Shown here: in pieces, positions 40,371 through 64,000 of the stretch | How the letters are laid out: each line of letters starts with the position of its first letter | Numbering within the stretch: position 1 is the first letter of the stretch | From: Fibrobacter sp. UWB16 | GTDB taxonomy: Bacteria > Fibrobacterota > Fibrobacteria > Fibrobacterales > Fibrobacteraceae | Direction: 5' to 3' | Assembly: GCF_900215325.1 (NCBI RefSeq) | Contig: NZ_OCMS01000001.1 | Coordinates: 124,001-188,000 of the forward strand | Length of the DNA: 64,000 nt | Program-made: the position numbers and the translations under genes | The notes under the pieces: model-generated | Databases searched by the model: none | Seen by the model: the letters and a program-made list of their open reading frames with translations, nothing else | Told to the model about the DNA's origin: nothing

Positions 40371-40444
40371 ACTACTAATAAAGTAATTCTATTAGTAGCG
40401 ATATTTTTTTAGTATTGGACAAAGGGTTTTGCGTTCTCTATATT
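40371..40444 (+). promoter_or_regulatory. sulfur-island promoter 1 (sulfite reductase/apr/cysDN operon)
   Basis: Core TAGTATTGGACAA ending 40422, exactly 16 bases, TATATT 40439-40444, with GCGTTC in the spacer. The upstream 30 bases include ACTAATAAA, matching promoter 4 at the same distance. A 9-bp dyad CTACTAATA...TATTAGTAG (40372-40398) is unique to this copy. Trp terminator upstream, operon downstream. Confidence 0.85.
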
Positions 40445-40470
40445 TGTTTCTCAAAAATGGGAGACATTCT

Positions 40471-41331
40471 ATGGCAGTTGATTATTCTACTCTTAAAAAG
40501 GGCGGCTGGATGCGCCAAAAGCAGAAGAACAATTTCTCGTTGCGCGTTCGCGTTGTTGGTGGGAACCTCACTGCAACACAGCTTGCCAAAATCGCCGAAG
40601 TCGCTGAAAAATATGGCGAAGGTTACGCTCACCTGACTTCGAGACAGAGCGTCGAGATTCCGTTCATCAAGCTTGAAAATATTGACGATGTGAAAAACGC
40701 ACTTGCCGAGGGTGGCGTTGAACCAGGCGTTTGCGGAGCCCGCGTGCGTACCATTACGGCATGCCAGGGTGAAGCCGTTTGCCCGAGCGGTTGCATTGAC
40801 ACATACGCTATCGCCAAGGAACTTGATGACCGTTACTTTGCACGAGAACTTCCGCACAAGTTCAAATTCGGTGTGACGGGTTGCCAGAACAACTGTCTCA
40901 AGGCCGAAGAAAACGACGTGGGCATCAAGGGCGCCATCAAGGTGGATTGGCTCGAAGACAAGTGCATCGGTTGCGGGCTTTGCGCAAAGGTTTGCCGCAA
41001 AGAGGCCATCAAGATCGAAAACAAGAAGGTCATTTTCGACAAGGAAAAATGCAATTACTGCGGCCGTTGTTACAAGTCCTGCCCCACTGACGCCTGGAGC
41101 CACATTCACGGCTACATCGTATCGTTTGGCGGGCTTTTCGGCAACAACATCAACAAGGGCGAAACGATTATTCCGTTTGTAGAAGACAAGCAGAAGCTCT
41201 TGGACATTTGCGATGCTGCGATTCAATTCTTTGCAGACAACGGAAAGAGCGGTGAACGTTTCAAGTACACGATCGACCGCGTCGGCCGCGATGTATTCGC
41301 AGAAAAAATACGAGAAGTTTATAACAAGTAA
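40471..41331 (+). CDS. small siroheme sulfite reductase with ferredoxin domain (AsrC/alSir-like)
   Basis: A 286-residue cytosolic enzyme reducing sulfite to sulfide. A ferredoxin-like half (VVGGNLTATQLAKIAEVAEKYG) and a siroheme half carry the coupled-cluster motif C-x5-C (ACQGEAVC) with C-x3-C (GCQNNC). Then come two [4Fe-4S] motifs: CIGCGLCAKVC and CNYCGRCYKSC. About half the size of CysI, it resembles AsrC and low-molecular-weight assimilatory sulfite reductases of anaerobes. ATG 40471 is set by GGGAG at 40459-40463. First gene of a five-gene operon; its stop overlaps the next start (TAATG). Confidence 0.9.
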   Translation: MAVDYSTLKKGGWMRQKQKNNFSLRVRVVGGNLTATQLAKIAEVAEKYGEGYAHLTSRQSVEIPFIKLENIDDVKNALAEGGVEPGVCGARVRTITACQGEAVCPSGCIDTYAIAKELDDRYFARELPHKFKFGVTGCQNNCLKAEENDVGIKGAIKVDWLEDKCIGCGLCAKVCRKEAIKIENKKVIFDKEKCNYCGRCYKSCPTDAWSHIHGYIVSFGGLFGNNINKGETIIPFVEDKQKLLDICDAAIQFFADNGKSGERFKYTIDRVGRDVFAEKIREVYNK

Positions 41332-43049
41332 TGAATATTGAAAAAATAAAAACAGACTTGCTAATCATCGGTGGCGGAACAGCTGGGTGTTACGCAGCCA
41401 TTACAGCCGCAGCACGGAATTCGGGCAAATCGCAAGACTTGAAAATTCTCATCGTCGAAAAGGCGAACATCAAGCGCAGCGGTTGCCTTGCAGCCGGTGT
41501 AAACGCCCTGAACGCCTACATCACCGAAGGCCGTACGCCAAAGGATTACGTGGAATACGCAAAGAAAGACGCCGATGGAATCGTGCGCGAAGATCTCCTG
41601 TATTCCATTTCCGAGAAGTTCAATGAAGTCACAGCGCATTTGGAAAAGCTCGGACTTGTCATCTTAAAAGACAAGGACGGCAAATACGTCACGCGCGGGA
41701 ATCGCAACATCAAGATTAACGGTGAAAACATCAAGCCGATTCTTGCAGCCGCTGTCGCAAAATTGCCATTTGTGCAAGTGCTAAATCATGTGAATGTCAT
41801 CGACTTTTCGGTACATGACAACCGCATTGACGGAGCTTTCGGTTTCGGCATTGAAAACGGAACGTTTTATGCTATTGAAGCAAAAGCGGTCATTATCGCT
41901 ACCGGCGGAGCAGCAGGGCTTTACCGCCCGAACAATCCAGGATTTTCAAGGCACAAAATGTGGTATCCGCCATTCAACACGGGTGCGGGCTACGCCATGG
42001 GAATCCGTCACGGTGCCGAGATGACAACTTTCGAGATGCGTTTTATAGCGCTCCGTTGCAAGGACACAATCGCCCCGACGGGAACTCTCGCGCAAGGCGT
42101 TGGAGCAAAGCAGGTGAATTCGCTCGGAGAAGTTTACGAAACGAAATACGGCATTTCAACTTCCGAACGCGTTTACGGAACCGTTGCCGAAAATCTAGCC
42201 GGTCGAGGTCCCTGCTACTTGCGCACTGTCGGGATTACCCCCGCACAGGAAGAATCGCTTCTGAAGGCATACTTAAACATGGCTCCATCACAAACGATTC
42301 GCTGGCTCGAAAACGAAACGCCCTCCAAAGCAAATGTGGAAATTGAAGGCACGGAGCCTTACATTGTAGGCGGCCACACGGCAAGCGGTTACTGGGTCGA
42401 TACCAAGCGCGCTACAACAATCGAAGGGCTTTACGCAGCTGGCGATGTTGCAGGCGGATGTCCGCAAAAGTATGTGACGGGCGCACTTGCCGAAGGCGAA
42501 ATTGCGGCGAAGTCGGCTGTAGAATATATCAACGCAGCGGAGGATCGCCTCGCCTCCTTACAGGGAGCTCGCAATGGCGTAGAAGCAGAAATCGCCCGAC
42601 ATGTCGCAGAAATCGAAACATATTTATCGCAGAAAAACTCGCTGTACACGACAGAACAACTTGAAGATGCCATGCAAATAGCCATGGACGAATATGCAGG
42701 CGGAATCAAGACAGGATATGGCTACAGCGAAAAGCAACTCAATATCGCCAAAGAAAAAATTGACGAAATTGAAAGTCTTACAGACAAGCTTAGCGCAGCC
42801 GATTTGCAAGAAGTGATGTACATCTACGAACTCAAGGAACGTCTGACAGTTTGCAAGAGCGTGATTGCCCACCTCAAGGCACGTCACGAAACGCGTTGGC
42901 ACAGTTTTGCAGAAAACCTAGACTACCCCGAAAAGGACAACGCCAACTTCCGCAAGTACGTCAATTCAAGACTCGAAAACGGCGAAATCAAAATCATCTT
43001 GCGTGACCTCACCGCAGAAGGGCAAAAGCACTATGAGCATCAGCATTGA
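41331..43049 (+). CDS. aprA: APS reductase-like flavoprotein, AprA type
   Basis: A 572-residue FAD protein of the succinate dehydrogenase/AprA family: LLIIGGGTAGCYAAITAA (FAD Rossmann), IKRSGCLAAGVNALNAYI, VIIATGGAAGLYRPNNPG, GGHTASGYWVD and GLYAAGDVAGGCPQKYV. It reduces adenylylsulfate (APS) to sulfite and AMP with AprB. In this operon, with CysDN, a small sulfite reductase and no CysH or CysC, an assimilatory role is far more likely than respiration. Comparable clusters occur in clostridia. It overlaps both neighbours (1 base before, 17 after). Confidence 0.9.
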   Translation: MNIEKIKTDLLIIGGGTAGCYAAITAAARNSGKSQDLKILIVEKANIKRSGCLAAGVNALNAYITEGRTPKDYVEYAKKDADGIVREDLLYSISEKFNEVTAHLEKLGLVILKDKDGKYVTRGNRNIKINGENIKPILAAAVAKLPFVQVLNHVNVIDFSVHDNRIDGAFGFGIENGTFYAIEAKAVIIATGGAAGLYRPNNPGFSRHKMWYPPFNTGAGYAMGIRHGAEMTTFEMRFIALRCKDTIAPTGTLAQGVGAKQVNSLGEVYETKYGISTSERVYGTVAENLAGRGPCYLRTVGITPAQEESLLKAYLNMAPSQTIRWLENETPSKANVEIEGTEPYIVGGHTASGYWVDTKRATTIEGLYAAGDVAGGCPQKYVTGALAEGEIAAKSAVEYINAAEDRLASLQGARNGVEAEIARHVAEIETYLSQKNSLYTTEQLEDAMQIAMDEYAGGIKTGYGYSEKQLNIAKEKIDEIESLTDKLSAADLQEVMYIYELKERLTVCKSVIAHLKARHETRWHSFAENLDYPEKDNANFRKYVNSRLENGEIKIILRDLTAEGQKHYEHQH

Positions 43050-43347
43050 TCAAAGCAAATGTATCGGCTGCAGGAGATGCCACGACGTATGCCCCGGCAC
43101 GCTAATCAAGATAAATGAAGACAAAAAAGCATTTATCAAGTACCCCAAAGATTGCTGGGGTTGCACTTCGTGCATCAAGGAATGCCCTGTTCATGCCATC
43201 CAATTTTTCCTCGGCGAAGACATTGGCGGCAAGGGAAGCAAGGTACATACCGAAAAAGTAAACGGTCTAATTCGCTGGATTGTGGAATTCCCAGACGGGA
43301 GCGTCAAATCCATTGACATTGACCCTAAAGAATCAAATAAATACTAG
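43033..43347 (+). CDS. aprB: APS reductase-like iron-sulfur subunit, AprB type
   Basis: A 104-residue ferredoxin-like protein with two [4Fe-4S] motifs: [12 protein letters not shown] and [12 protein letters not shown]; the second has the Trp typical of AprB. The short C-terminal tail ([21 protein letters not shown]) resembles the AprB region that wraps AprA, though shorter than the dissimilatory protein. ATG 43033 lies inside the end of aprA. It passes electrons to the FAD of AprA. Confidence 0.9.
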
Positions 43348-43357
43348 GAGTTTCACA

Positions 43358-44257
43358 GTGAGCGAATTTTCACACCTCGACGAGCTGGAAGCCGAAGCCA
43401 TTTACATCATCCGCGAAGTCGCCGCTGAATGCGAAAAGCCGGTGATGCTTTATTCCATTGGCAAGGACAGTTCCGTCATGTTGCATTTGGCCATGAAGGC
43501 CTTCTATCCCGAAAAGCCTCCTTTCCCGTTTTTGCACGTCAATACGACCTGGAAATTCCGCGAAATGATTGAATTTCGCGATAGGATTGCAAAAAAGTAC
43601 GGCATTGAAATGCTGGAACACATCAACCAGGATGGCGTCAAACAAGGCATTAACCCATTTGACCATGGTGCCGCCTATACTGACATCATGAAAACGCAGG
43701 CTCTGAAGCAGGCGCTGAACAAGTACGGTTTTACCGCCGCATTTGGCGGTGGTCGCCGCGACGAAGAAAAGTCCCGCGCGAAGGAAAGAATTTTCTCGTT
43801 CCGTAATTCCGCGCACGCCTGGGACCCGAAAAATCAGCGTCCCGAAATGTGGAAACTTTACAACACCAAGATCAACAAGGGCGAAAGCATCCGCGTTTTT
43901 CCGATTTCGAACTGGACCGAAAAGGACATCTGGCAGTACATCAAACGCGAAAAGATTGATATCGTACCGCTTTACTTTGCAGCCCCACGCCCAGTCGTTG
44001 TACGCGATGGCAACATCATCATGGTCGATGACGAACGATTCCCTTTGCGTGAAGGCGAAAAGCCCGAAATCAAGTCGGTGCGCTTCCGCACGCTCGGTTG
44101 CTACCCGCTTACAGGCGGCATAGAATCAACAGCTACAACACTTGACGAAATCATTGACGAAACTTTGAGCGCCGTATCTTCGGAAAGAACATCGCGCGTG
44201 ATTGACAACGAAGCCGCCGGCAGCATGGAACGCCGCAAGAGGGAGGGCTATTTCTAA
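43358..44257 (+). CDS. cysD: sulfate adenylyltransferase subunit 2
   Basis: A 299-residue ATP pyrophosphatase-type subunit that makes APS from sulfate and ATP. PP-loop [10 protein letters not shown], then [36 protein letters not shown] and [13 protein letters not shown]. The start is GTG 43358 with AGGAG at 43346-43350; the open frame extends further upstream but overlaps aprB. Length agrees with CysD (about 300). Stop and cysN start overlap (TAATG). Confidence 0.96.
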
Positions 44258-45942
44258 TGAAAGGTTTATTGAAGTTTATTACTTGCGGTAGCGTTGACGA
44301 CGGAAAATCAACCCTTATCGGTCATATTCTTTACGATTCCAAATTGCTTTACACCGATCAGGAAAAGGCTCTGGAATTGGACAGTAAAGTCGGTAGCCGC
44401 AGCGGAAAAATTGACTATTCGCTTTTGCTCGACGGCCTTATGGCAGAACGCGAACAAGGCATTACCATAGATGTCGCGTACCGCTATTTTACAACGGACC
44501 ATCGCAGTTTTATTGTTGCCGATACACCGGGGCATGAAGAATACACACGCAACATGGCTGTGGGCGCATCATTTGCCGACCTCGCCGTGATTCTCGTGGA
44601 CGCTTCGCAGGGAGTTCTCGTACAGACGCGCAGACACGCTCGCATTTGCAGACTGATGGGCATCCGCCACTTCGTCTTTGCCGTGAACAAGATGGATCTT
44701 GTGGGTTACAGCGAAGAGGTATTCAACAAAATCAAGGTACAAATTGCAGAACTTGCACAGACTCATTCCTTGAGCAACATCCAAGTTATTCCGCTCTCGG
44801 CAACGGAAGGCGACAACGTTACCATCAAATCGAAAAACATTGCATGGTATCAAGGCCCAGCTTTACTCGAATACCTTGAAAATGTCGATACATCAAGCAC
44901 TGCTCAAGAAAAGGGATTTTACATGCCCGTGCAGCGCGTGAGCCGCCCCGACCGTACATTCCGCGGATTTCAAGGACAAATTGAATCTGGAACGATTCGC
45001 GTCGGAGACGTCATCAAATCCCTCCCGAGTTACGAGAAAGCATCCGTCAAAAGCATTCTCTACACAAACAAGAATGTCAAAGAAGCTCACGCTGGCGAAC
45101 CAGTCACGATTACGCTTGATCGCGAAGTTGACGTATCGAGAGGTTGCGTGCTCGCTAGAGATGCAAGCATCGGTAGCTACAAGAAAATCAAGGCGTCACT
45201 TTTGTGGATGGATGACGAGCCGCTTTCGCTAGGCAAAGACTACCTCGTCAAAATCGGGACAAAGATTATTCCAGGAACACTCACGAAAATCGACTATGCC
45301 ATTGACGTGAACACAGGCGCACACTTAGAAACAGAAAGCATTTCCAAAAACGGGATTGCCGTCTGCGAACTTGTTTTCGCCGAAGCCATTGTCGTTGATC
45401 TTTTTGAAAAGCACAAAACGCTTGGCGAGCTCATTCTCATTGACATCGTAACGCATGCAACAGCCGCTTGCGGCGTTGTTGAAGGGCTCTACGAAAAGCA
45501 ACTTCAATCCAACGAAAAGGCAGCCTTTGTGCAGGGTGAACGCCATGGCCGTGGAGAAATCTTCGAAGAATTCTTCTACGATACAGCTACACTTTCCGTA
45601 GTAAAGCAGCAGCCCATCAAGCAGCACTACACTGTAGGCGACGAAATCCCGACTGCTGGCGAAAGCTACCACTACCCCGACGATTTCGACATCATCATCT
45701 TGCGTGACAGCGTGGCCGTCAAGGTGCGTGGCAAACGCATCTCCGAAATCACGGCCGCGGACCAGTACCATTACGGAAACGTTCCGGTCATCAACGGTCG
45801 CGGTTTTGAAATCAAGGTCCATTCCGACGAAGATGTTAAGCAGCTGCTTAACGAATACGAAAAAGCAGGTATCGCAGGTCGCGAAGAATTCTTCCGCAAG
45901 TGGGCTTCATTTAATACATATCGCAAAGTCGTATTACACTAA
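44257..45942 (+). CDS. cysN: sulfate adenylyltransferase subunit 1 (GTPase)
   Basis: A 561-residue EF-Tu-like GTPase that couples GTP hydrolysis to APS formation by CysD. G1 GSVDDGKSTLIGH, G3 DTPGHEEYTRNM, G4 NKMDLV. It is longer than E. coli CysN (475): the extra C-terminal 85-90 residues lack a P-loop, so this is not the CysNC fusion with APS kinase. That fits direct APS reduction by AprBA. Last gene of the operon, followed by a terminator. Confidence 0.96.
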   Translation: MKGLLKFITCGSVDDGKSTLIGHILYDSKLLYTDQEKALELDSKVGSRSGKIDYSLLLDGLMAEREQGITIDVAYRYFTTDHRSFIVADTPGHEEYTRNMAVGASFADLAVILVDASQGVLVQTRRHARICRLMGIRHFVFAVNKMDLVGYSEEVFNKIKVQIAELAQTHSLSNIQVIPLSATEGDNVTIKSKNIAWYQGPALLEYLENVDTSSTAQEKGFYMPVQRVSRPDRTFRGFQGQIESGTIRVGDVIKSLPSYEKASVKSILYTNKNVKEAHAGEPVTITLDREVDVSRGCVLARDASIGSYKKIKASLLWMDDEPLSLGKDYLVKIGTKIIPGTLTKIDYAIDVNTGAHLETESISKNGIAVCELVFAEAIVVDLFEKHKTLGELILIDIVTHATAACGVVEGLYEKQLQSNEKAAFVQGERHGRGEIFEEFFYDTATLSVVKQQPIKQHYTVGDEIPTAGESYHYPDDFDIIILRDSVAVKVRGKRISEITAADQYHYGNVPVINGRGFEIKVHSDEDVKQLLNEYEKAGIAGREEFFRKWASFNTYRKVVLH

Positions 45943-52581: not shown

Positions 52582-52655
52582 AATACTAATAAATTAATCT
52601 TATAACCTACAATATTTATTTAGTATTGGACAAGGTAATAGTTGCGTTCTATATT
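52582..52655 (+). promoter_or_regulatory. sulfur-island promoter 4 (metY operon)
   Basis: TTTAGTATTGGACAA ending 52633, 16 bases, TATATT 52650-52655, TGCGTTC in the spacer. Upstream box AATACTAATAAATTAAT is nearly the same as in promoter 1 at the same position. Confidence 0.85.
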
Positions 52656-52680
52656 TTGGCGCGAAAGAGGAGTTTTTAAT

Positions 52681-54036
52681 ATGACAAAGAATACATCAAA
52701 AAAGAAAATTGAATCTGCAAAGAATACCGCTAACGTTACTGATCCGAGCAAATGGAATTTTGCAACAAAGTGTTTACAGGCAGGATGGAAGCCCAAGATT
52801 GGCGAACCACGCGTACTCCCGATTTTCCAGTCCACGACTTACAAGTACGAAGACGTCGATGAAGTGGAACGCCTCTTTGCACTCAAGCAATCAGGCAACA
52901 AATACACCCGCACAGGGAACCCGACCGTAGCGGCATTTGAAAGCAAGATTACGGAACTCGAAGGCGGCGTGGGTGCAGTTGCAACCGCATCGGGGCAAGC
53001 CGCAGTCCTCCTTGCGATTTCGAACCTCGTGAAAGCAGGCGACCACATTGTTGCAAGCAAAACCATTTACGGCGGCAGCTACACATTGCTCAGCGTAAGG
53101 CTTTCCAAGCTCGGCATTGAAACGACGTTCATCGACCCGGAAGATTCCATCGCAGAACTCCGCAAAGCATTCCGCCCCAACACCAAGCTCATTTTCGGCG
53201 AAACGATTGGCAATCCCGCCTTGGGCATTTTAGATTTTGAAAAGTTTTCCAAGCTCGCCAAGGAATTTGACGTTCCCTTCCTCGTAGATAACACGCTCGC
53301 AACGCCATTTCTCGTGAAGCCTTTAAAACTCGGCGCAAACGTTGTCATTCATTCGGCCACAAAGTACATCGATGGTCACGCCGTTGCGCTCGGCGGTGTC
53401 GTCATTGATGGTGGCAATTACAACTGGGAAAACGGTAAGTTCCCAGACCTCGTGGAACCGGATGCGCAATACGCAAACACCTCCTATACTCAAAAATTTG
53501 GACGTGCCGCATTTATCGCAAAGGCTCGTGCTCAATTCTTGCGCGATTATGGCGCCGCATTAAGCCCGTTCAATGCATTCCTTTTGAATTTGGGCCTTGA
53601 AACGCTCCATTTGCGAATGCCGCAACACAGCAACAACGCACTCGCATTGGCTGAATTTTTGTCCAAGCATCCCGCCGTGAATTGGGTCAGCTATCCGGGA
53701 CTCAAATCTAGCCCATATTTCAAGCGCATCCGCAAATACTTTGATTATCGAGGCGGCAGCGGCGTACTCACATTCGGCCTCAAGGGTGGCAGAGCAGCCA
53801 TCCGCTCGTTTGTCAAAGCTTTGAAAGTCGCCGCCCTCGTCGTTCACGTTGGCGACGCCCGCACAAGCGTTTTGCACCCGGCAACAAGCACACATTCGCA
53901 GCTTTCGCCGAAGGACAGACTCGCCGCAGGCATCCCCGAAGATATGATTCGCGTATCCGTTGGCATAGAAGACCCGCGCGACATCATCGCTGACTTTGAA
54001 CAAGCTATTGCAGCAAGCACCAAAGGCGGTAAGTAA
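52681..54036 (+). CDS. metY: O-acetylhomoserine sulfhydrylase
   Basis: A 451-residue PLP enzyme of the Cys/Met metabolism family that uses O-acetylhomoserine with sulfide (or methanethiol) to give homocysteine (or methionine). YTRTGNPTVAAFESKITELEGG, ASGQAAVLLAI, PLP Lys in HSATKYIDGHAVALGG, and RVSVGIEDPRDIIADF at the end. It has an extra basic N-terminal stretch of about 25 residues. Ribosome site GAGGAG. Coupled to the methyltransferase by TAATG. A second, more distant MetY is at 59323. Confidence 0.92.
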   Translation: MTKNTSKKKIESAKNTANVTDPSKWNFATKCLQAGWKPKIGEPRVLPIFQSTTYKYEDVDEVERLFALKQSGNKYTRTGNPTVAAFESKITELEGGVGAVATASGQAAVLLAISNLVKAGDHIVASKTIYGGSYTLLSVRLSKLGIETTFIDPEDSIAELRKAFRPNTKLIFGETIGNPALGILDFEKFSKLAKEFDVPFLVDNTLATPFLVKPLKLGANVVIHSATKYIDGHAVALGGVVIDGGNYNWENGKFPDLVEPDAQYANTSYTQKFGRAAFIAKARAQFLRDYGAALSPFNAFLLNLGLETLHLRMPQHSNNALALAEFLSKHPAVNWVSYPGLKSSPYFKRIRKYFDYRGGSGVLTFGLKGGRAAIRSFVKALKVAALVVHVGDARTSVLHPATSTHSQLSPKDRLAAGIPEDMIRVSVGIEDPRDIIADFEQAIAASTKGGK

Positions 54037-54992
54037 TGAGTATCGTTGTAGATGTCAATAAATACCTTGCATTAAATGGTGCGACAAAGCGCATCAAAGA
54101 TTACCTCTCTATTGAAGTTGCCGATCACGCCTACCTGCCGAAAACTGAAGACATTAAAAGCGACTGGGTCGCCTACATTGCAGCCCCCGCATTCAAGCTG
54201 ATTCGCGAAAAATTGGGTCACGACATTGATTCATTCGTTTCCATCGGCACAGGTTCCGGCATAGACGTGTTGACCGGCATTGAGCTTTTGGGAGCAAAGC
54301 GCGTAGGCTTCACGGATTTGCAAAGAAGCGTTGTCGCCGCCGCGGCACAGAACGTTAGGAACAATTTAAAAAGCAACGACATTGAATTTGAATTTGGCGA
54401 TGGCGATCTTTTGCAACCGCTCCAAAACGGCAAGCGAAATTACGACGTGATTTACGAGAACCTCCCCAACGTGCCGCTAGCAAGCAACACAAAGATTGAA
54501 GACAAGCGCAATAGCGGCCATTATCTGGAAAAACGCGAAGAGGCTATTCCCGAATTTGTGCATGAGCAAATGCTTGACTTGCATTACTTGGCGCTCAAGC
54601 AAGCACGCGATTATTTGGCACAAAACGGAGCCGTCTATTCAACGCTTGGTGGGCGCGTTCCGCTCAGCGCATTCATCAAGCTCGGAGAATTGGCTGGACT
54701 CCATTCCGAGATTTTTACGTATTCCTGGAAAGTCCAAGCCGAGCCGGAAGATGTGATTTCGGGATACGCCGCACAAGAAAAAGCTGGCCTCGGCCCGTTC
54801 AGATTCTACCGCGCTGAAGACTTGCAAAAAGCATTTGCAAACGTTTCCGTCAAAGATTCAGGCAGTCGCGCTTTTGAAATTGAAAAAACTCTCGATTCCG
54901 TAAAGCTTACCGCAACCGCCGCATACGAAGCATTCAAAAAAGGCGAAGTCATCGGCCATACCGTCGCCGTGTTAAAATCTAGCGTGGAATAG
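54036..54992 (+). CDS. class I SAM-dependent methyltransferase
   Basis: A 318-residue protein. SAM motif I VSIGTGSGIDVLTGIELLGAKRVGFTDL and a motif IV-like YENLPNVPL, which resembles the N-(D)PPY catalytic loop of N- or S-methyltransferases. The substrate is not readable. Its place between MetY and a DMSP-lyase-like cupin, in one coupled transcript under a sulfur promoter, suggests a small sulfur compound (thiol, thioether or sulfonium) as substrate or product. Overlaps metY by 1 base; the cupin gene follows after 7 bases. Confidence 0.75.
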   Translation: MSIVVDVNKYLALNGATKRIKDYLSIEVADHAYLPKTEDIKSDWVAYIAAPAFKLIREKLGHDIDSFVSIGTGSGIDVLTGIELLGAKRVGFTDLQRSVVAAAAQNVRNNLKSNDIEFEFGDGDLLQPLQNGKRNYDVIYENLPNVPLASNTKIEDKRNSGHYLEKREEAIPEFVHEQMLDLHYLALKQARDYLAQNGAVYSTLGGRVPLSAFIKLGELAGLHSEIFTYSWKVQAEPEDVISGYAAQEKAGLGPFRFYRAEDLQKAFANVSVKDSGSRAFEIEKTLDSVKLTATAAYEAFKKGEVIGHTVAVLKSSVE

Positions 54993-54999
54993 GGATGCT

Positions 55000-55602
55000 A
55001 TGAAAAATGTTATTCAAAATTTAATTGAAGAATCCCAAAAGTTTCTTTTCAAGAGAGCCAAAATCGACGATAAAATCGGGCTTGAAGCCGCCAATTTTGC
55101 AGTCCGAGACATTCCAAAGCCAATTGGAAAATTTGAAAAAAGCGACTCGCCGCTAATCCGCTACATTGGAGAAGCTATCAAGCACGGGAACCCTGAAACT
55201 GCAGATTTGCTAAAAGCTTTGGAGCCCGCCCTCCCCTATTTGCCGTGGAAATACAATTACGAGCCGCGCCCCGACATGCCTGATTTAGCCGATCAAATGG
55301 GATGGGGAGAAATTCTCGGCCCAGAAGCGCCCTATCACGACGAGCATTTCTGTTTCGGCTTTACGCTCCTCGGCAAAAACACTTTTTACCCCTCCCACTT
55401 GCACCCCGCCACAGAACTGTACGTCATTTTGTCCGGACACGCCATATGGACACTAGACGGAATCTCAAAAGTACGCGGTCCTGGAGAGTTTGTACTGCAC
55501 CCATCCAACCACATACACTCCATGCAAACCGAACACGAACCCATGCTCGCACTCTACACGTGGAGCGGTAAAGACGTCAAAACGCTTTCAAAATATGTGT
55601 AA
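55000..55602 (+). CDS. cupin of the DMSP-lyase-like family
   Basis: A 200-residue protein. The N-terminal half is helical (about 1-110). The C-terminal cupin has motif 1 YPSHLHPATELYVILSG with His133, His135 and Glu139, plus Tyr141, and motif 2 GPGEFVLHPSNHIHSM with His173, the metal ligands. This pattern matches dimethylsulfoniopropionate lyase-type cupins, which release dimethyl sulfide from a sulfonium compound; related cupins may have other substrates. In a plant-fed gut bacterium, plant sulfonium compounds such as S-methylmethionine are plausible (inference). It ends the metY operon. Confidence 0.75.
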   Translation: MKNVIQNLIEESQKFLFKRAKIDDKIGLEAANFAVRDIPKPIGKFEKSDSPLIRYIGEAIKHGNPETADLLKALEPALPYLPWKYNYEPRPDMPDLADQMGWGEILGPEAPYHDEHFCFGFTLLGKNTFYPSHLHPATELYVILSGHAIWTLDGISKVRGPGEFVLHPSNHIHSMQTEHEPMLALYTWSGKDVKTLSKYV

Positions 55603-59322: not shown

Positions 59323-60552
59323 ATGGATTTTAATACGACTTTATTGCATCATAATTTTGAAAGTGAACGAAGTACCGGCTCTACGCTTACCCCTATTTAT
59401 CAAGTCAGTGCATTTTCGCAAGAATCCGCAGAGAAACTCGAAGCTGTTTTTAACAATAGGGCTCCGGGTTTTGCATATACGCGCATTGGAAACCCCACGA
59501 CAGATTCTTTCGAAAGGCGCATTGCATCTCTTGAAAAGGGCATTGGCGCCATAGCCTGCTCGTCGGGCATGGCTGCCGTGACGATGTCGCTCTTGAACAT
59601 TTTGCAGTCCGGCGACGAAGTTATTGCAAGTACAGCGCTGTTTGGCGGCACGATCGACTTGTTCCACGATTTGGAAGCATTCGGCATTAAAACCCGTTAC
59701 GTCACAGAAGTTACCGCTGAGAGCGTTCGTTCGCAACTGAGCGATAAGACCAAGGCAGTTTTTACAGAACTTATCGGCAACCCGAAACTCAATGTCGTTG
59801 ATATTCAAAGCGTTGCAGATGTCGCACACGAAGCAGGCGTCCCGCTGATTGTCGACAGCACGACGGCAACTCCTTACCTTGTCCATCCTTTTGACTTTGG
59901 CGCAGATATCGTTGTCCACTCCTCTTCCAAGTACATCAACGGAAACGGCAGTGCCATCAGCGGCATCATCGTCGATAGCGGAAAATTCAAGTGGGATTAC
60001 ACCAAATACAAGGGCTTGGAAGAATACAAGCGCTTTAGCAAGTTCGCTTATCTCGCAAAGCTCCGCAACGGCGTCTGGCGCAATATTGGTTGTTGTCTCG
60101 CCCCCGCTACCGCATTCCTGAACTCGCTCGGGCTTGAAACTCTCGGACTCCGCATGGAACGCCTTTGCGATAACGCCTTGCAACTCGCTGAATTTTTGCA
60201 GGGTTTCGAAGGCATCAAGGTCAACTACCCCGCATTGAAGGGCAATCCCTATTACGATCTCGTTCAAAAGCAGTTTAACGGCAAGGGCGGCGCCATCATC
60301 TCGATTGACGCAGGCTCCAAGGAAAAGGCTTTCAAGCTCATCAACAACTTGAAATACGCTACAATAGCCACGAACATTGGCGACTTGCGCACACTCGTCA
60401 TCCACCCGGATAGCACGATTTTCACGCACAGTACCAAACTGCAAAAAGAAAACGCAGGCGTGTTCGAAGGCTCGATCCGCATCAGCGTAGGCATTGAAGA
60501 TATTGCCGACCTCAAGGAAGATTTCGAACAAGCTATAAAGCAGATTTCGTAG
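59323..60552 (+). CDS. second O-acetylhomoserine sulfhydrylase, thiocarboxylate-linked type
   Basis: A 409-residue PLP enzyme, distinct subfamily from MetY at 52681: FAYTRIGNPTTDSFERRIASLEKG, SSGMAAVTMSLLNI, PLP Lys in HSSSKYINGNGSAISG, and IRISVGIEDIADLKEDF. The genes after it (TusA-like, ThiS-like, ThiF-like, JAMM) are those of the Wolinella-type pathway in which MetY takes sulfur from the thiocarboxylate of the carrier HcyS to make homocysteine. That role is inferred from context. It has its own promoter (5) and a GGAG ribosome site. Confidence 0.9.
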   Translation: MDFNTTLLHHNFESERSTGSTLTPIYQVSAFSQESAEKLEAVFNNRAPGFAYTRIGNPTTDSFERRIASLEKGIGAIACSSGMAAVTMSLLNILQSGDEVIASTALFGGTIDLFHDLEAFGIKTRYVTEVTAESVRSQLSDKTKAVFTELIGNPKLNVVDIQSVADVAHEAGVPLIVDSTTATPYLVHPFDFGADIVVHSSSKYINGNGSAISGIIVDSGKFKWDYTKYKGLEEYKRFSKFAYLAKLRNGVWRNIGCCLAPATAFLNSLGLETLGLRMERLCDNALQLAEFLQGFEGIKVNYPALKGNPYYDLVQKQFNGKGGAIISIDAGSKEKAFKLINNLKYATIATNIGDLRTLVIHPDSTIFTHSTKLQKENAGVFEGSIRISVGIEDIADLKEDFEQAIKQIS

Positions 60553-60570
60553 AAGGACAGCCCCAAAAGG

Positions 60571-60612
60571 TGTCATTCTGAGCGAAGCGCAGCGTAGTCG
60601 AAGAATCCGCGA
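60571..60612 (-). repeat. palindromic element, GAATCC type
   Basis: TGTCATTCTGAGCG ... TCGAAGAATCCGC: read on the minus strand it ends in AGAATGACA. Confidence 0.7.
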
Positions 60613-60686
60613 GTAACCTATAAAAAATTTCAATAACTCAGCATAAAAATTAAGTATTGGACAAGTTAAAAAACGCGTTCTATATT
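60613..60686 (+). promoter_or_regulatory. sulfur-island promoter 6 (TusA/HcyS/HcyF/JAMM genes)
   Basis: GCATAAAAATTAAGTATTGG then ACAA ending 60664, 16 bases, TATATT 60681-60686, GCGTTC before it. Upstream CCTATAAAAAATTTCAATAA in register. Confidence 0.86.
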
Positions 60687-60717
60687 TAGCATCAAAATTA
60701 AAGTACGGAGATAAAAA

Positions 60718-60966
60718 ATGTCAGAAGAAATTAAAGTAGACGATACCGTCGACGTCACCGACGTCAAATGCCCCACTACATTTGTCAAGGCTAAAGTCGC
60801 TATCGAAGAACTTGACGAAGGTCAGATTCTCGCAATCCGTCTGAACGACGGCGAACCGGTGCAAAATGTGCCGCGTAGCCTCAAGGAAGAAGGTCACGAA
60901 ATCCTCAAGCTCAACGACAATCAGGACGGAACCTTTACGCTCTTTGTGAAAAAAGTCGGGGATTAG
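60718..60966 (+). CDS. TusA/SirA-family sulfur-transfer protein
   Basis: An 82-residue protein. The TusA fold is shown by VTDVKCPTTFVKAKVAIEELDEGQILAIRLNDGEPVQNVPRSL with sulfur-carrying Cys18; the usual CPxP is CPTT here. It would deliver persulfide sulfur to the ThiF-like enzyme or the carrier encoded downstream. TACGGAGATAAAA is the ribosome site. First gene under promoter 6; a palindromic element separates it from the carrier gene. Confidence 0.88.
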   Translation: MSEEIKVDDTVDVTDVKCPTTFVKAKVAIEELDEGQILAIRLNDGEPVQNVPRSLKEEGHEILKLNDNQDGTFTLFVKKVGD

Positions 60967-60977
60967 CCCCAAAAGGC

Positions 60978-61003
60978 GATCCCGGAATAAATCCGGGATG
61001 ACA
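60978..61003 (+). repeat. palindromic element
   Basis: GATCCCGGA-ATAAA-TCCGGGATGACAG hairpin between the TusA-like and ThiS-like genes, within the operon. Confidence 0.85.
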
Positions 61004-61038
61004 GCGAAAACAATTTAAACAAAAAAGGAATTTCAAAC

Positions 61039-61245
61039 ATGTTTATTACTGTTGCAGGAAACAAGAAAGAATTTAATGACGGCCTCACCGTTGCTCAACT
61101 CATTGAACAAGAAAAGGTCGAAACGCCGCAGTACGTGACCGTTTCCCTGAACGATGAATTTGTTGAAAACAACAATTTCGCAACCACCGCTCTCAAAGAC
61201 GGCGACAACGTCGAATTCCTCTACTTCATGGGAGGTGGTCAGTAA
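61039..61245 (+). CDS. ThiS/HcyS-type sulfur carrier protein
   Basis: A 68-residue ubiquitin-fold protein: FNDGLTVAQLIEQE, VTVSLNDEFVENNNF, ALKDGDNVEFLYFMGGG. It ends MGGGQ, that is, with one residue after the Gly-Gly. ThiS ends exactly at GG; the HcyS and QbsE types carry extra residues that a JAMM peptidase removes, and two JAMM genes lie downstream. The exposed Gly would be adenylated and turned into a thiocarboxylate. Its stop overlaps the ThiF-like start (TAATG). Confidence 0.88.
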   Translation: MFITVAGNKKEFNDGLTVAQLIEQEKVETPQYVTVSLNDEFVENNNFATTALKDGDNVEFLYFMGGGQ

Positions 61246-62054
61246 TGGCTTTTACTAACGAACAACTCGAACGCTATTCCCGCCACATCATCCTCAAGGA
61301 AGTGGGTGCAAAGGGCCAGAAGAAGCTTTTGAACGCCAAGGTGCTCGTCATTGGCGCAGGTGGCCTCGGTGCTCCTGTCGCTATGTACCTCGCCGCTGCT
61401 GGCGTTGGCACCATCGGCATTGCCGATGCAGACGTCGTTGACCTTTCCAATTTGCAGCGCCAGATTATCCACGCCACAAAGGATGTGGGCAAGCCCAAGG
61501 TGCAGTCCGCCAAGGAAACGATGGAAGCGATGAATCCGGATGTCAAGGTGATTACGTACCACACGTTCGTCACTAGCGACAACATCATGGACCTCATCAA
61601 GGATTACGATTTTATCATTGATGGAACCGACAACTTCCCGGCAAAGTTCCTCATCAACGACGCTTGCGTCATGGCCAAGAAGCCGTTCTCTCACGCGGGC
61701 ATTATCCGCTTCCAGGGGCAGCTCATGACGTACGTTCCGGGTCAAGGTCCGTGCTACCGCTGCGTCTTCAAGGAACCCCCTCCGAAAGATGCCGTGCCGA
61801 CTTGCAAGCAGGCAGGCGTGATCGGCGCTATGGGCGGTGTTATCGGTAGTTTGCAGGCGATGGAAGCCGTCAAGTACATTCTCGGTGTTGGCAATTTGCT
61901 CACGGGCTACTTGCTCACCTACAATGCGCTCACGATGGAATTCCGCAAGATCAAGCTCCCGACAAACACGAAGGATTGCGCAGTCTGCGGTGACCACCCG
62001 ACGATTGACCATCTGATCGACTACGAACAAGCCGTCTGTGAGATGAAGCACTAA
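61245..62054 (+). CDS. ThiF/MoeB-type E1-like activating enzyme (HcyF-like)
   Basis: A 269-residue adenylyltransferase. ATP site GAGGLG (residues 37-42), RQIIHATKDVGKPK, DGTDNF; catalytic Cys187 (VPTCKQAGVIG); Zn Cys pairs C170/C173 and C245/C248. It adenylates the C-terminal Gly of the carrier encoded just upstream, with sulfur probably from the TusA-like protein. No rhodanese domain. Coupled to the carrier gene. Confidence 0.93.
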   Translation: MAFTNEQLERYSRHIILKEVGAKGQKKLLNAKVLVIGAGGLGAPVAMYLAAAGVGTIGIADADVVDLSNLQRQIIHATKDVGKPKVQSAKETMEAMNPDVKVITYHTFVTSDNIMDLIKDYDFIIDGTDNFPAKFLINDACVMAKKPFSHAGIIRFQGQLMTYVPGQGPCYRCVFKEPPPKDAVPTCKQAGVIGAMGGVIGSLQAMEAVKYILGVGNLLTGYLLTYNALTMEFRKIKLPTNTKDCAVCGDHPTIDHLIDYEQAVCEMKH

Positions 62055-62089
62055 GCGAGTCGGAAGTAGGAAGTTGACAGTAGGAAGTG

Positions 62090-62161
62090 CCATGCCCGAT
62101 TTAATCGGGCATCACCCTTTCAACACAAGAAGGAGATTCCCGGTCGGAGCCGGGAATGACA
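62090..62161. repeat. two palindromic elements
   Basis: 62090-62115 (minus): CCATGCCCGAT-TTA-ATCGGGCATC. 62130-62161 (plus): GGAGATTCCCGG-TCGGAG-CCGGGAATGACAA, the second type found in ligA. Confidence 0.83.
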
Positions 62162-62246
62162 AACAAGGCGAATGTTGCGACAAAACGCTTGAGTTTTGGC
62201 ATAGCTGAGCCGCAAAATCAAGCCACGAAGTGGAATGACAAGCAAC
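62162..62246. repeat. diverged relative of the 165-bp repeat core
   Basis: AAGGCGAATGTTGCGACAAAA-CGCTTG-AGTTTTGGCATAGCTGAGCCG follows the same plan as the centre of the 165-bp repeats (GGCGA, GCGACA, a hairpin around GCTTG, CAT, TGAGCCG) with different stem bases. Confidence 0.55.
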
Positions 62247-62262
62247 AAAAAAAGGAATTTCA

Positions 62263-62673
62263 ATGATTACAATTTCAAAAGATGATTATCAAAAAATCCT
62301 GGAGCATGCCCAGAAGAACCTCCCCGAAGAGGCTTGCGGGCTGATTGCCGGGAAAATTGAGGGGAACGACAAGCATATTGAAAAGGTTTACCTGCTCACG
62401 AATATTGACCATTCCAATGAGCACTTTTCGCTTGACCCTAAGGAACACTTAGCCGCCATCAAGGATATGCGCCAAAACGGCCTATCCCCGCTTGGTAACT
62501 GGCATTCCCACCCCGAGTCCCCGTCGCGCCCGTCGCAAGAAGACAAGCGCCTCGCTTTCGACAGCAAGGCTAGCTACTTGATTCTTTCGCTGATGGATCG
62601 TGAAAATCCGGTGCTCAATTCGTTCCATATCGAAGGCGACAATGCCACGAACGAAGGCTTGGTGATCGGGTAA
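62263..62673 (+). CDS. JAMM/MPN+ metallopeptidase (HcyD-like)
   Basis: A 136-residue single JAMM domain: Glu22/23 (PEEACGLIAG), then His81-x-His83-x7-Ser91-x2-Asp94 (HSHPESPSRPSQED), the complete zinc and catalytic set. Such peptidases trim residues after Gly-Gly of sulfur carriers (HcyD, QbsD) or release Cys from CysO (Mec). Here trimming of the terminal Gln of the ThiS-like carrier is the likely role. It shares the leader AAAAAAGGAATTTCA with the carrier gene. A terminator-like hairpin follows. Confidence 0.92.
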   Translation: MITISKDDYQKILEHAQKNLPEEACGLIAGKIEGNDKHIEKVYLLTNIDHSNEHFSLDPKEHLAAIKDMRQNGLSPLGNWHSHPESPSRPSQEDKRLAFDSKASYLILSLMDRENPVLNSFHIEGDNATNEGLVIG

Positions 62674-62688
62674 AGGTCTCCGTACAAA

Positions 62689-62737
62689 CGGCGCCCCTGG
62701 GATCCTTCTGAAATTCCGATTCCGGGGGCGCTTTTTT
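62689..62737 (+). terminator. terminator-like hairpin between the two JAMM genes
   Basis: GCGCCCCTGG / CCGGGGGCGC, 10-bp stem, 21-base loop, then CTTTTTT. The second JAMM gene starts 16 bases later with no shared-type promoter, so it depends on read-through or an unseen promoter. Confidence 0.8.
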
Positions 62738-62752
62738 ATAGGGGAAATTTTA

Positions 62753-63160
62753 ATGATGGCCAAATATAGTAAAAACATTTATGAACAAATGGTTTTAGCA
62801 GCCAAAAAAGCATATCCGAACGAATGCTGTGGTATTTTGGTGGGTAAAAAGTCCGAACAGAGCGAAATCGAAGTGACCGAAATTCGCGAAGCCGAGAACC
62901 AGTTTCAAGGGCAAAAAGCAGTCCACTTCAAAATAGACCCGCTATACCTTTACCACTTGGAACAAGAACTTGAAACGCGCGGTCTTGAAATTGTCGGCAT
63001 TTACCATTCACACCCCGACTGCCCCGCCATTCTCTCCAAAGAAGACGAAAAATACATGGTCCCCGGCCTCGAATACGTCATCATGTCCGTACAAAACGGC
63101 GAAGTCGTGGATGTGAAAAGCTACAAGAAGGCGATGCCGCCACTCAATAGCAATAACTAA
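62753..63160 (+). CDS. JAMM/MPN+ metallopeptidase (Mec-like)
   Basis: A 135-residue JAMM domain: Glu24 (YPNECCGILVG), His85-x-His87-x7-Ser95-x2-Asp98 (HSHPDCPAILSKED). It differs clearly from the first JAMM protein (a Cys-Cys after the Glu). Mec-type enzymes cleave Cys from CysO-Cys. The CysO-like fusion encoded next suggests that role, or processing of the fusion itself. ATG 62753 or 62756; ribosome site GGGGAAA. Confidence 0.9.
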   Translation: MMAKYSKNIYEQMVLAAKKAYPNECCGILVGKKSEQSEIEVTEIREAENQFQGQKAVHFKIDPLYLYHLEQELETRGLEIVGIYHSHPDCPAILSKEDEKYMVPGLEYVIMSVQNGEVVDVKSYKKAMPPLNSNN

Positions 63161-63214
63161 TGAATATTGACCAATGACTAATAACCATAAACTATTGACC
63201 ACAGACCAACAGCT
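63161..63214. other. intergenic stretch with imperfect short repeats
   Basis: A run of TGACCA / ATGACTA / TAACCA words, with TATTGACCA occurring twice. No gene seen. Similar degenerate runs occur near other repeats in this window. Confidence 0.4.
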
Positions 63215-63288
63215 ATCTGTTATAGAAAAAATCAATAAGTCCGCATAAAAATTAAGTATTGGACAAACGCGTTTTTACGTTCTATATT
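63215..63288 (+). promoter_or_regulatory. sulfur-island promoter 7 (ubiquitin-fold/E1 fusion)
   Basis: GCATAAAAATTAAGTATTGG then ACAA ending 63266, 16 bases, TATATT 63283-63288, ACGTTC before it. Upstream TTATAGAAAAAATCAATAA in register. Confidence 0.85.
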
Positions 63289-63364
63289 TCAGCACGAAAA
63301 AATCCTACAACTATTGTGGGAAAATTTGTACGGAACAACCACTTTTTAATGTACGGAGAAAAAA

Positions 63365-64000
63365 GTGAGAATTTATATATCAGCAACCCTTAGGAATTTC
63401 TTCGGGAAAAACGCGCAAGTCAGCGTCCCCGAAAACACGGTTAGAAAGGCTCTCGCCAATTTAATAAGTACTTATCCAGAAGGAGAAAAAGTCCTTTTTG
63501 ATGAAAACAACAAGCTCAGAAGTTTCATCAAGATCTACCTCAACGGCAAGAATTTGAACGTCGATACACTCTGGGACGCCACACTTGAAGACGATTCCGA
63601 AATTTTGCTTTTGCCCGCCATCGCAGGCGGCGCACCGATTGAAGAATCGCAAAGCAAACACGTCGAAAGCTTGATTTCTGACGAAAGACGCAAGGAAGTC
63701 GCTTTTGACGATAGCGAAATTGAACGCTTCGGCAAGCACCTGATGCTCAAAGACATCGGCGTCAAGGGCCAAAAGCGCATCAAGGCCGCAAAAGTCGTCG
63801 TCATTGGCGTTGGCGCACTCGGCTCTCCGGTGATCCAGTATCTCGCCGCCGCAGGCGTTGGCACCATCAAGGCCATCGACTTCGACGAAGTCTCGCTCGA
63901 AAACTTGCAAAGCCAGGTATTGCACGGCACACGCGACGTCAAGCGTCCGAAGGTCGCCTCTGCAAAGGACAAAGTCAAAAACATCAACAAGAATATCGTC
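63365..64000 (+). CDS. CysO-like sulfur carrier fused to an E1-like activating enzyme (partial)
   Basis: Open to the right edge; 212 codons are visible. The start is GTG 63365 with GGAG at 63355-63358. Residues 1-89 are a MoaD/ThiS/CysO ubiquitin fold ending LLLPAIAGG (Gly88-Gly89), as in CysO. Residues 90-117 are a polar linker. From about 120 the E1 domain starts (RFGKHLMLKDIGVKGQKRIKAAKVVVIGVGALGSP, ATP site 148-153). So the carrier glycine is internal, followed by APIEES. It must either be cut after Gly89 (JAMM peptidases are next door) or work in some other way. Likely part of cysteine synthesis by protein thiocarboxylate; the rest of the gene lies outside. Confidence 0.88.
   Translation, partial: MRIYISATLRNFFGKNAQVSVPENTVRKALANLISTYPEGEKVLFDENNKLRSFIKIYLNGKNLNVDTLWDATLEDDSEILLLPAIAGGAPIEESQSKHVESLISDERRKEVAFDDSEIERFGKHLMLKDIGVKGQKRIKAAKVVVIGVGALGSPVIQYLAAAGVGTIKAIDFDEVSLENLQSQVLHGTRDVKRPKVASAKDKVKNINKNIV

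Follow-up and report, generated by a model that had tools for sequence, protein, structure and literature searches.

What would a DMSP-lyase-like (DLL) cupin do in Fibrobacter, directly behind genes for an O-acetylhomoserine sulfhydrylase-type enzyme (MetY1) and a SAM-dependent methyltransferase (MT)? To our knowledge, no role has been assigned to the DMSP-lyase-like cupins that many non-marine bacteria carry. Sulfonium synthesis of the MmtN type has been described mostly in plants and in organisms that make DMSP, and we found no description of a MetY-MT-cupin trio in the literature searched. We therefore analyzed the trio within the 64-kb stretch of DNA that contains it (hereafter, the window) and across related genomes. 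A sequence-only reading had described the three genes as one coupled operon, and the open reading frames (Table 1) agree with that description: the metY stop codon TAA (54034-54036) shares one base with the ATG of the MT gene (TAATG), and the gap between the MT stop codon and the cupin ATG is 7 bases. In the source genome, the cupin gene is followed by DUF6803 and BioB-like genes; because these are absent after the trio in other lineages, we placed the end of the operon at the cupin gene.

Table 1. Features of the trio and positions of related genes and promoter motif sites in the window.
Feature	Position	Strand	Basis or context
Promoter of the trio	52620..52656	+	TTAGTATTGGACAA-N12-CGTTCTATATTT; resembles a -35/-10 promoter that contains an operator
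MetY1, O-acetylhomoserine sulfhydrylase-type PLP enzyme, apparent trio-dedicated paralog	52681..54036	+	TIGR01326
SAM-dependent methyltransferase (MT), predicted remote MmtN/MMT relative	54036..54992	+	Structural model, profile-profile comparison
DMSP-lyase-like (DLL) cupin, predicted metal-dependent sulfonium lyase	55000..55602	+	PF16867
MetY2	59323-60552		Followed by ThiS-like, MoeB/ThiF and JAB genes
Motif site	40409		Upstream of sulfite-reductase-like gene with aprA
Motif site	46069		Upstream of porin
Motif site	48425		Upstream of cysT
Motif site	59247		Upstream of metY2
Motif sites	60651, 63253		Upstream of two thiocarboxylate/ThiF gene sets

The promoter of the trio had been read as a sulfur promoter, and its motif is indeed common to sulfate-reduction, sulfate-transport and homocysteine genes in the window (Table 1). 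The exact pattern TATTRGACAAN{10,18}CTATATTT has eight matches in the whole 3.56 Mb genome and none in the reversed control; seven of the eight are located within the sulfur island of the window. The eighth, on contig C4, precedes a DUF4418-FtsX-ATPase transporter, and a homologue of this ATPase is encoded immediately 5' of metY in a second clade of Fibrobacter (clade 2). On a matrix built from the eight exact genome sites, the trio site among them, the trio site scores 50 bits, whereas the best scores in random 64-kb sequence were 8-12 bits. In every clade-1 Fibrobacter locus scanned, the promoter ahead of metY reaches 43-50 bits, whereas the site upstream of clade-2 metY is weaker (23-30 bits). 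Since the window genes bearing the motif have predicted roles in sulfate activation, reduction and uptake and in homocysteine synthesis, the motif is best read as the mark of a sulfur-acquisition regulon, which would presumably respond to sulfur limitation.

The MT and cupin genes are present in the same 28 of 151 Fibrobacterota genomes, with the pair occurring in all 28 Fibrobacteraceae genomes that carry either one, and they are adjacent at every locus read. MetY1 exceeds the curated cut-off of its family (562 vs. 495 bits). Of the 50 Fibrobacter genomes found in both of our genome samples, 17 have MT and cupin, and all 17 also encode an orthologue of MetY1 (at least 89% identity), compared with 0 of the 33 without them; MetY1 thus has the distribution of a MetY dedicated to the pair. 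This co-occurrence with the MT does not result from linkage only, as MetY1 lies ~40 kb from the MT in one genome (G013). In clade 2, metY is set apart from the MT-cupin pair by a gene for an ABC binding protein and by metK in convergent orientation; no importer adjoins the trio in clade 1. In another genome (G031), an ISL3 transposase interrupts the MT gene, the gene for the binding protein is cut short, and there is no trio MetY nearby, as if the trio module decays together.

Outside this phylum, we identified the contiguous trio in two Oxalobacter MAGs; identities at one of these loci (L018) are 70%, 63% and 52% for MetY, MT and cupin, respectively. Conservation of the trio across neighborhoods, on which the sequence-only reading depended, thus extends to two phyla. 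MetY1 is at most ~55% identical to its Fibrobacter paralogs and ~40% identical to the other Oxalobacter MetY. Because the trio MetY sequences of the two phyla are closer to each other than either is to the other MetY sequences of its own genome, the comparison points to horizontal transfer of the trio module. Among 398 Pseudomonadota and 195 Oxalobacteraceae-centered genomes, Oxalobacter alone yielded a full-length MT, and the other matches were short and PrmA-like. No MT homologue was detected on the plasmids searched, and there was no match in the viral contigs searched; DLL cupins on plasmids occurred in unrelated clusters. At 14 further DLL cupin loci, neither MT nor MetY1 was present.

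The cupin matches the Pfam family DMSP_lyase (PF16867) with 86.4 bits against a gathering cut-off of 27 (2.3e-24), and its best sequence matches in the PDB are of the DddQ/DddL type (4e-15). The structural model (pLDDT 87) also has DddQ as its top structural match (Foldseek, ~2e-15). Published work on DddQ identified Tyr120, His123, His125, Glu129, Tyr131 and His163 as catalytic residues (PMC4437653); by alignment, these correspond to Y130, H133, H135, E139, Y141 and H173 of the cupin, and all six are invariant across 13 aligned homologues. The His133/His135/Glu139/His173 pattern noted earlier therefore occurs at the positions given, and the cupin retains a complete DDD-type metal/tyrosine site, where the lack of a metal site or lyase pocket had been named as the finding that would speak against the proposed role. 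By sequence, the cupin belongs to the DLL superfamily, which comprises DddQ, DddL, DddW, DddK and lyase-like relatives, and it has the fold and all published DddQ catalytic residues in common with them; from these residues we infer lyase activity. It differs from the known members in its low identity to them (23-25%), in its occurrence in non-marine gut anaerobes, and in having an MmtN-like MT as partner in all trio genomes. A tree of 26 DLL sequences places the trio cupins in a separate clade (support 98/97), apart from those of DddQ and DddL, and the cupin was accordingly assigned to neither.

The methyltransferase (METHYLTRANSFERASE) is more remote from characterized proteins. Family libraries returned weak PrmA/HemK signals only, and sequence-only searches of the PDB with the MT and with an MT profile gave no significant match. 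However, the MT model (pLDDT 72, with low-confidence stretches at residues 1-42 and 149-168) ranks the MmtN structures 7vvv/7vvw/7vvx first, with Z 19.7 (rmsd 3.7 A, 236 aligned) compared with 15.3 for the next family, and Foldseek gave 1e-13 for MmtN and 5e-9 for the next match. A profile of 13 trio MTs aligned collinearly with a profile of MmtN and plant MMT (E 5e-6, 86%), although this long collinear match was obtained only with the two-member profile; in single-sequence hhalign controls, MmtN alone and PrmA matched alike on the SAM motif. The best PDB match of the sequence used as plant MMT probe is MmtN (5.7e-8), which is consistent with its identity as plant MMT but no proof of it.

The SAM-binding GxGxG motif of the MT is G71-T-G-S-G75, which is invariant, as is D94, the counterpart of the ribose-binding Asp69 of MmtN. 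The C-terminal motifs G[GA]R and QA..D..S..E are also collinear between the MT and MmtN/MMT. Based on the model and the profile comparison, the MT is a remote relative of the methionine S-methyltransferases MmtN and plant MMT (N-terminal domain; PMC9135737): among solved structures MmtN stands well ahead of the next family, and the SAM motif is common to them. The two differ in that identity is ~20%, no DMSP-synthesis or HMT genes lie beside the trio, and MmtN residues Cys121, Glu127 and Arg132 are replaced by Asn142, Leu148 and Lys153, the last of which is not conserved. As Glu127 and Arg132 of MmtN bind methionine (PMC9135737), their loss makes a different substrate likely, and the predicted role of the MT is likely S-methylation of an acceptor other than methionine. 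Both the MmtN likeness of the MT and the status of MetY1 as a dedicated paralog go beyond the sequence-only reading.

The gene families, the co-inheritance of the three genes, and the promoter common with sulfate-assimilation genes are direct observations. That sulfur is acquired through a sulfonium-forming MT and a sulfonium-cleaving cupin working together with a dedicated MetY is, in our assessment, a serious possibility just short of an even call. In the version that we favor, MetY1 would join O-acetylhomoserine and a scavenged thiol into a methionine-like thioether; the simplest such thiol would be a beta-mercapto-carboxylate, for example 3-mercaptopropionate or cysteine. The MmtN-like MT would then use SAM to methylate the thioether sulfur, giving a sulfonium with a beta-carboxyethyl arm, in effect DMSP with one methyl group swapped for a homocysteine chain. 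Acting in the manner of DddQ, the cupin would take the alpha proton of this arm and expel a neutral thioether, which would be methionine, together with an acrylate-type acid. SAM could be remade from methionine (metK adjoins the genes in clade 2), so that the net gain would be homocysteine/methionine sulfur from an organic thiol. The order of steps (MetY, MT, cupin) is also the gene order, and each enzyme would act on an analogue of the known substrate of its family.

In favor of this scheme, MmtN and MMT, to which the MT is related by structure and profile, convert a methionine-type thioether to a sulfonium. Further support comes from the intact DddQ catalytic set of the cupin, the co-inheritance of the three genes even where MetY1 is distant, the importer cassette ahead of the Oxalobacter trio together with the gene content of that genome (described below), the sulfur-regulon promoter, the clade-2 cluster with its metK, and the joint decay suggested by G031. 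Against it, the residues that hold methionine in MmtN are replaced in the MT, the MT model has low-confidence stretches, clade 1 has no importer beside the trio, and a bare acrylate product is awkward in a source genome without an AcuI-type reductase. We looked for the acrylate reductase AcuI in the source genome and did not find it, which speaks against much free acrylate being produced there; other arms are possible, for example one derived from cysteine. The exact thiol and order of steps are considerably less certain than the general claim; the complete scheme, a new route to methionine/homocysteine in gut anaerobes from an organic beta-thiol and O-acetylhomoserine through a SAM-derived sulfonium and DMSP-lyase-type beta-elimination, we regard as somewhat more doubtful. 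Of the function suggested by the sequence-only reading, methylated-sulfur (sulfonium) chemistry tied to methionine synthesis within a sulfur-acquisition regulon holds up, whereas its substrates (DMSP, S-methylmethionine and S-methyl thioethers) are not established, given a cupin outside DddQ/DddL, an MT without Glu127/Arg132, and a genome with neither AcuI nor a stand-alone HMT.

The trio suggests a so far undescribed route by which non-marine bacteria may scavenge organic sulfur. Its presence in two unrelated gut lineages (rumen Fibrobacter and gut Oxalobacter), under a sulfur-regulon promoter in Fibrobacter, makes the function of non-marine DLL cupins testable with three enzymes and a few candidate substrates. 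If the proposal is true, non-marine DLL cupins would gain a biosynthetic role in sulfur assimilation, and the trio may represent a sulfur-scavenging pathway in the rumen and gut, where the fate of sulfur affects methionine supply and volatile sulfur gases.

The same net reaction would be obtained if the MT S-methylated an imported beta-mercapto acid, the cupin eliminated methanethiol, and MetY1 combined methanethiol with O-acetylhomoserine to yield methionine. Use of methanethiol by MetY-type enzymes is established, and methanethiol is a direct precursor of methionine (PMC12552129). The MT and cupin are also the tightest pair, from which MetY is separable, and an importer upstream of the Oxalobacter genes fits entry of the substrate at the MT: there, the trio directly follows genes for an ABC permease, an ATPase, a DUF1847 protein and an NMT1-family binding protein (a sulfonate/NMT1-type importer cassette). 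The binding protein encoded between MetY and MT in clade-2 Fibrobacter has 32% identity to the Oxalobacter binding protein. However, what the known DDD cupins release on cleaving a sulfonium is a neutral dialkyl sulfide and no thiolate, and MmtN, the closest structure to the MT, methylates a thioether; we consider this sequence of steps unlikely.

We regard as distinctly unlikely a route in which the MT turns a methyl thioether (e.g., 3-methylthiopropionate or S-methylcysteine) into a dimethylsulfonium, the cupin frees DMS, methylthio-alkane reductase (Mar) reduces DMS to methanethiol, and MetY1 uses the methanethiol to make methionine. The source genome does encode Mar, an enzyme that reduces DMS to methanethiol, its catalytic alpha subunit aligning with 613 bits to R. 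rubrum MarDK2H2 (9FMG) vs. 129 bits to the next nitrogenase. Anaerobic methionine salvage by MarHDK and O-acetylhomoserine sulfhydrylase likewise couples cleavage of methylated sulfur to MetY, but the cleavage is reductive and nitrogenase-like, and the mar genes lack an exact copy of the sulfur promoter based on the genome-wide pattern scan. In ~98% of the genome of Oxalobacter G151, which carries the full trio, we detected no MarHDK and no relative of CysD or AprA, and the search for CysN gave only a weak, EF-Tu-level match. DMS would thus be a dead end for the MetY of this genome, and DMS reduction by Mar, although a possible route in Fibrobacter, was rejected as a general explanation. Based on this gene content, the trio can function where neither sulfate nor DMS is reduced, and the absences favor a pathway whose own end product is methionine or methanethiol.

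The families may also mislead: the MT could methylate nitrogen, oxygen or a different sulfur compound, the cupin could bind a ligand or catalyze chemistry other than that of a lyase, and the trio could be some other sulfur-regulated module. Consistent with this, the MT has no sequence-level match to any solved protein, and DLL cupins elsewhere lie beside fatty-acid-type CoA genes, a HutH-like lyase with an ABC importer, or flavin/ETF genes. The structural ranking of the MT, the conserved lyase residues, the sulfur regulon and the dedicated MetY together make such a reading very unlikely. Finally, it is highly improbable that the trio serves biosynthesis and not scavenging, with MetY making methionine, the MT making S-methylmethionine (SMM) and the cupin turning SMM or SMM-derived DMSP into, for example, DMS or the precursor of an osmolyte. 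One pathway of DMSP synthesis does begin with MmtN, and the cupin is kin to DMSP lyases, but the cluster has no enzymes between SMM and DMSP, the sulfonium of SMM is gamma, not beta, to the carbon with the acidic alpha proton, so that on chemical grounds DddQ-type elimination should fail on SMM, the methionine-binding residues of MmtN are not kept, the source genome has no stand-alone SMM-homocysteine methyltransferase, and the promoter belongs with sulfur acquisition genes. A search of the source genome for a stand-alone PF02574 homocysteine methyltransferase identified only MetH (1223-aa frame), and an SMM cycle (MMT/MmtN plus homocysteine S-methyltransferase) was rejected on this basis.

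The window also encodes MetY2, whose gene set resembles systems in which MetY works with a protein thiocarboxylate (HcyS-type ThiS, MoeB/ThiF and JAB protease). This set differs from the trio in its distant MetY and in having neither MT nor cupin, and it forms a separate transcription unit.

Exact matches to the sulfur regulon motif TTAGTATTGGACAA-N12-CGTTCTATATTT number only eight genome-wide; seven lie inside one 23-kb sulfur-assimilation island, and the eighth is upstream of a DUF4418-FtsX-ATPase transporter. Beside CysDN, the sulfur promoter governs genes for an AprA-type adenylyl-sulfate reductase alpha subunit (948 bits to its family model) and for a small protein that resembles sulfite reductase and carries two ferredoxin clusters; these two proteins apparently serve assimilation. 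The cluster that begins with MetY2, the distant second MetY, appears to encode the protein-thiocarboxylate route to homocysteine known from Wolinella.

Elsewhere in the source genome, the MarHDK alpha subunit scores 613 bits against 9FMG, the structure of MarD from R. rubrum, and the MarHDK genes are followed by a porin, an SsuA-like binding protein, and an SsuBC-type transporter. A Fibrobacter of the rumen may convert methyl sulfides to methane, ethylene or ethane. A subfamily of NMT1/SsuA-type binding proteins, marked by an HTGC-like motif, keeps company with DUF1847 or CysK-like genes, and with the trio of MetY, methyltransferase and DMSP-lyase-like (DLL) cupin.

In clade-2 Fibrobacter, the gene order is binding protein, convergent metK (SAM synthetase), and methyltransferase. 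The trio module looks to be decaying in genome G031, where no trio MetY was found near the split methyltransferase (locus L100).

In rhizobia, DLL cupins neighbor either a HutH-like ammonia-lyase and an ABC importer or flavin/ETF oxidoreductases, with betaine transport genes also near the cupin in the latter type; these neighboring genes suggest onium substrates other than DMSP.

Coordinates of features in the window and in other loci (L numbers; G000, source Fibrobacter genome; C4, one of its contigs)
Feature	Location	Family match
Sulfur regulon motif	window 40409-63289; L145 1339	
AprA-type adenylyl-sulfate reductase alpha subunit and sulfite-reductase-like protein	window 40429-45942	NF005331 (AprA)
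MetY2, then ThiS-like protein, MoeB/ThiF, two JAB proteases, ThiS-ThiF fusion	window 59323-64000	
MarHDK, nitrogenase-like methylthio-alkane reductase	L144 5381-9224 = G000:C4:14380-18226 (- strand)	
NMT1/SsuA-type binding protein subfamily, HTGC-like motif	L018 1564-3584; L144 13824-14909	
Clade-2 Fibrobacter metK, convergent	L010 3592-4782 and equivalents	
Methyltransferase gene interrupted by ISL3-family transposon	L100 5948-8384 (G031)	
Rhizobial DLL cupin loci	L054 497-9173; L055 2814-10451
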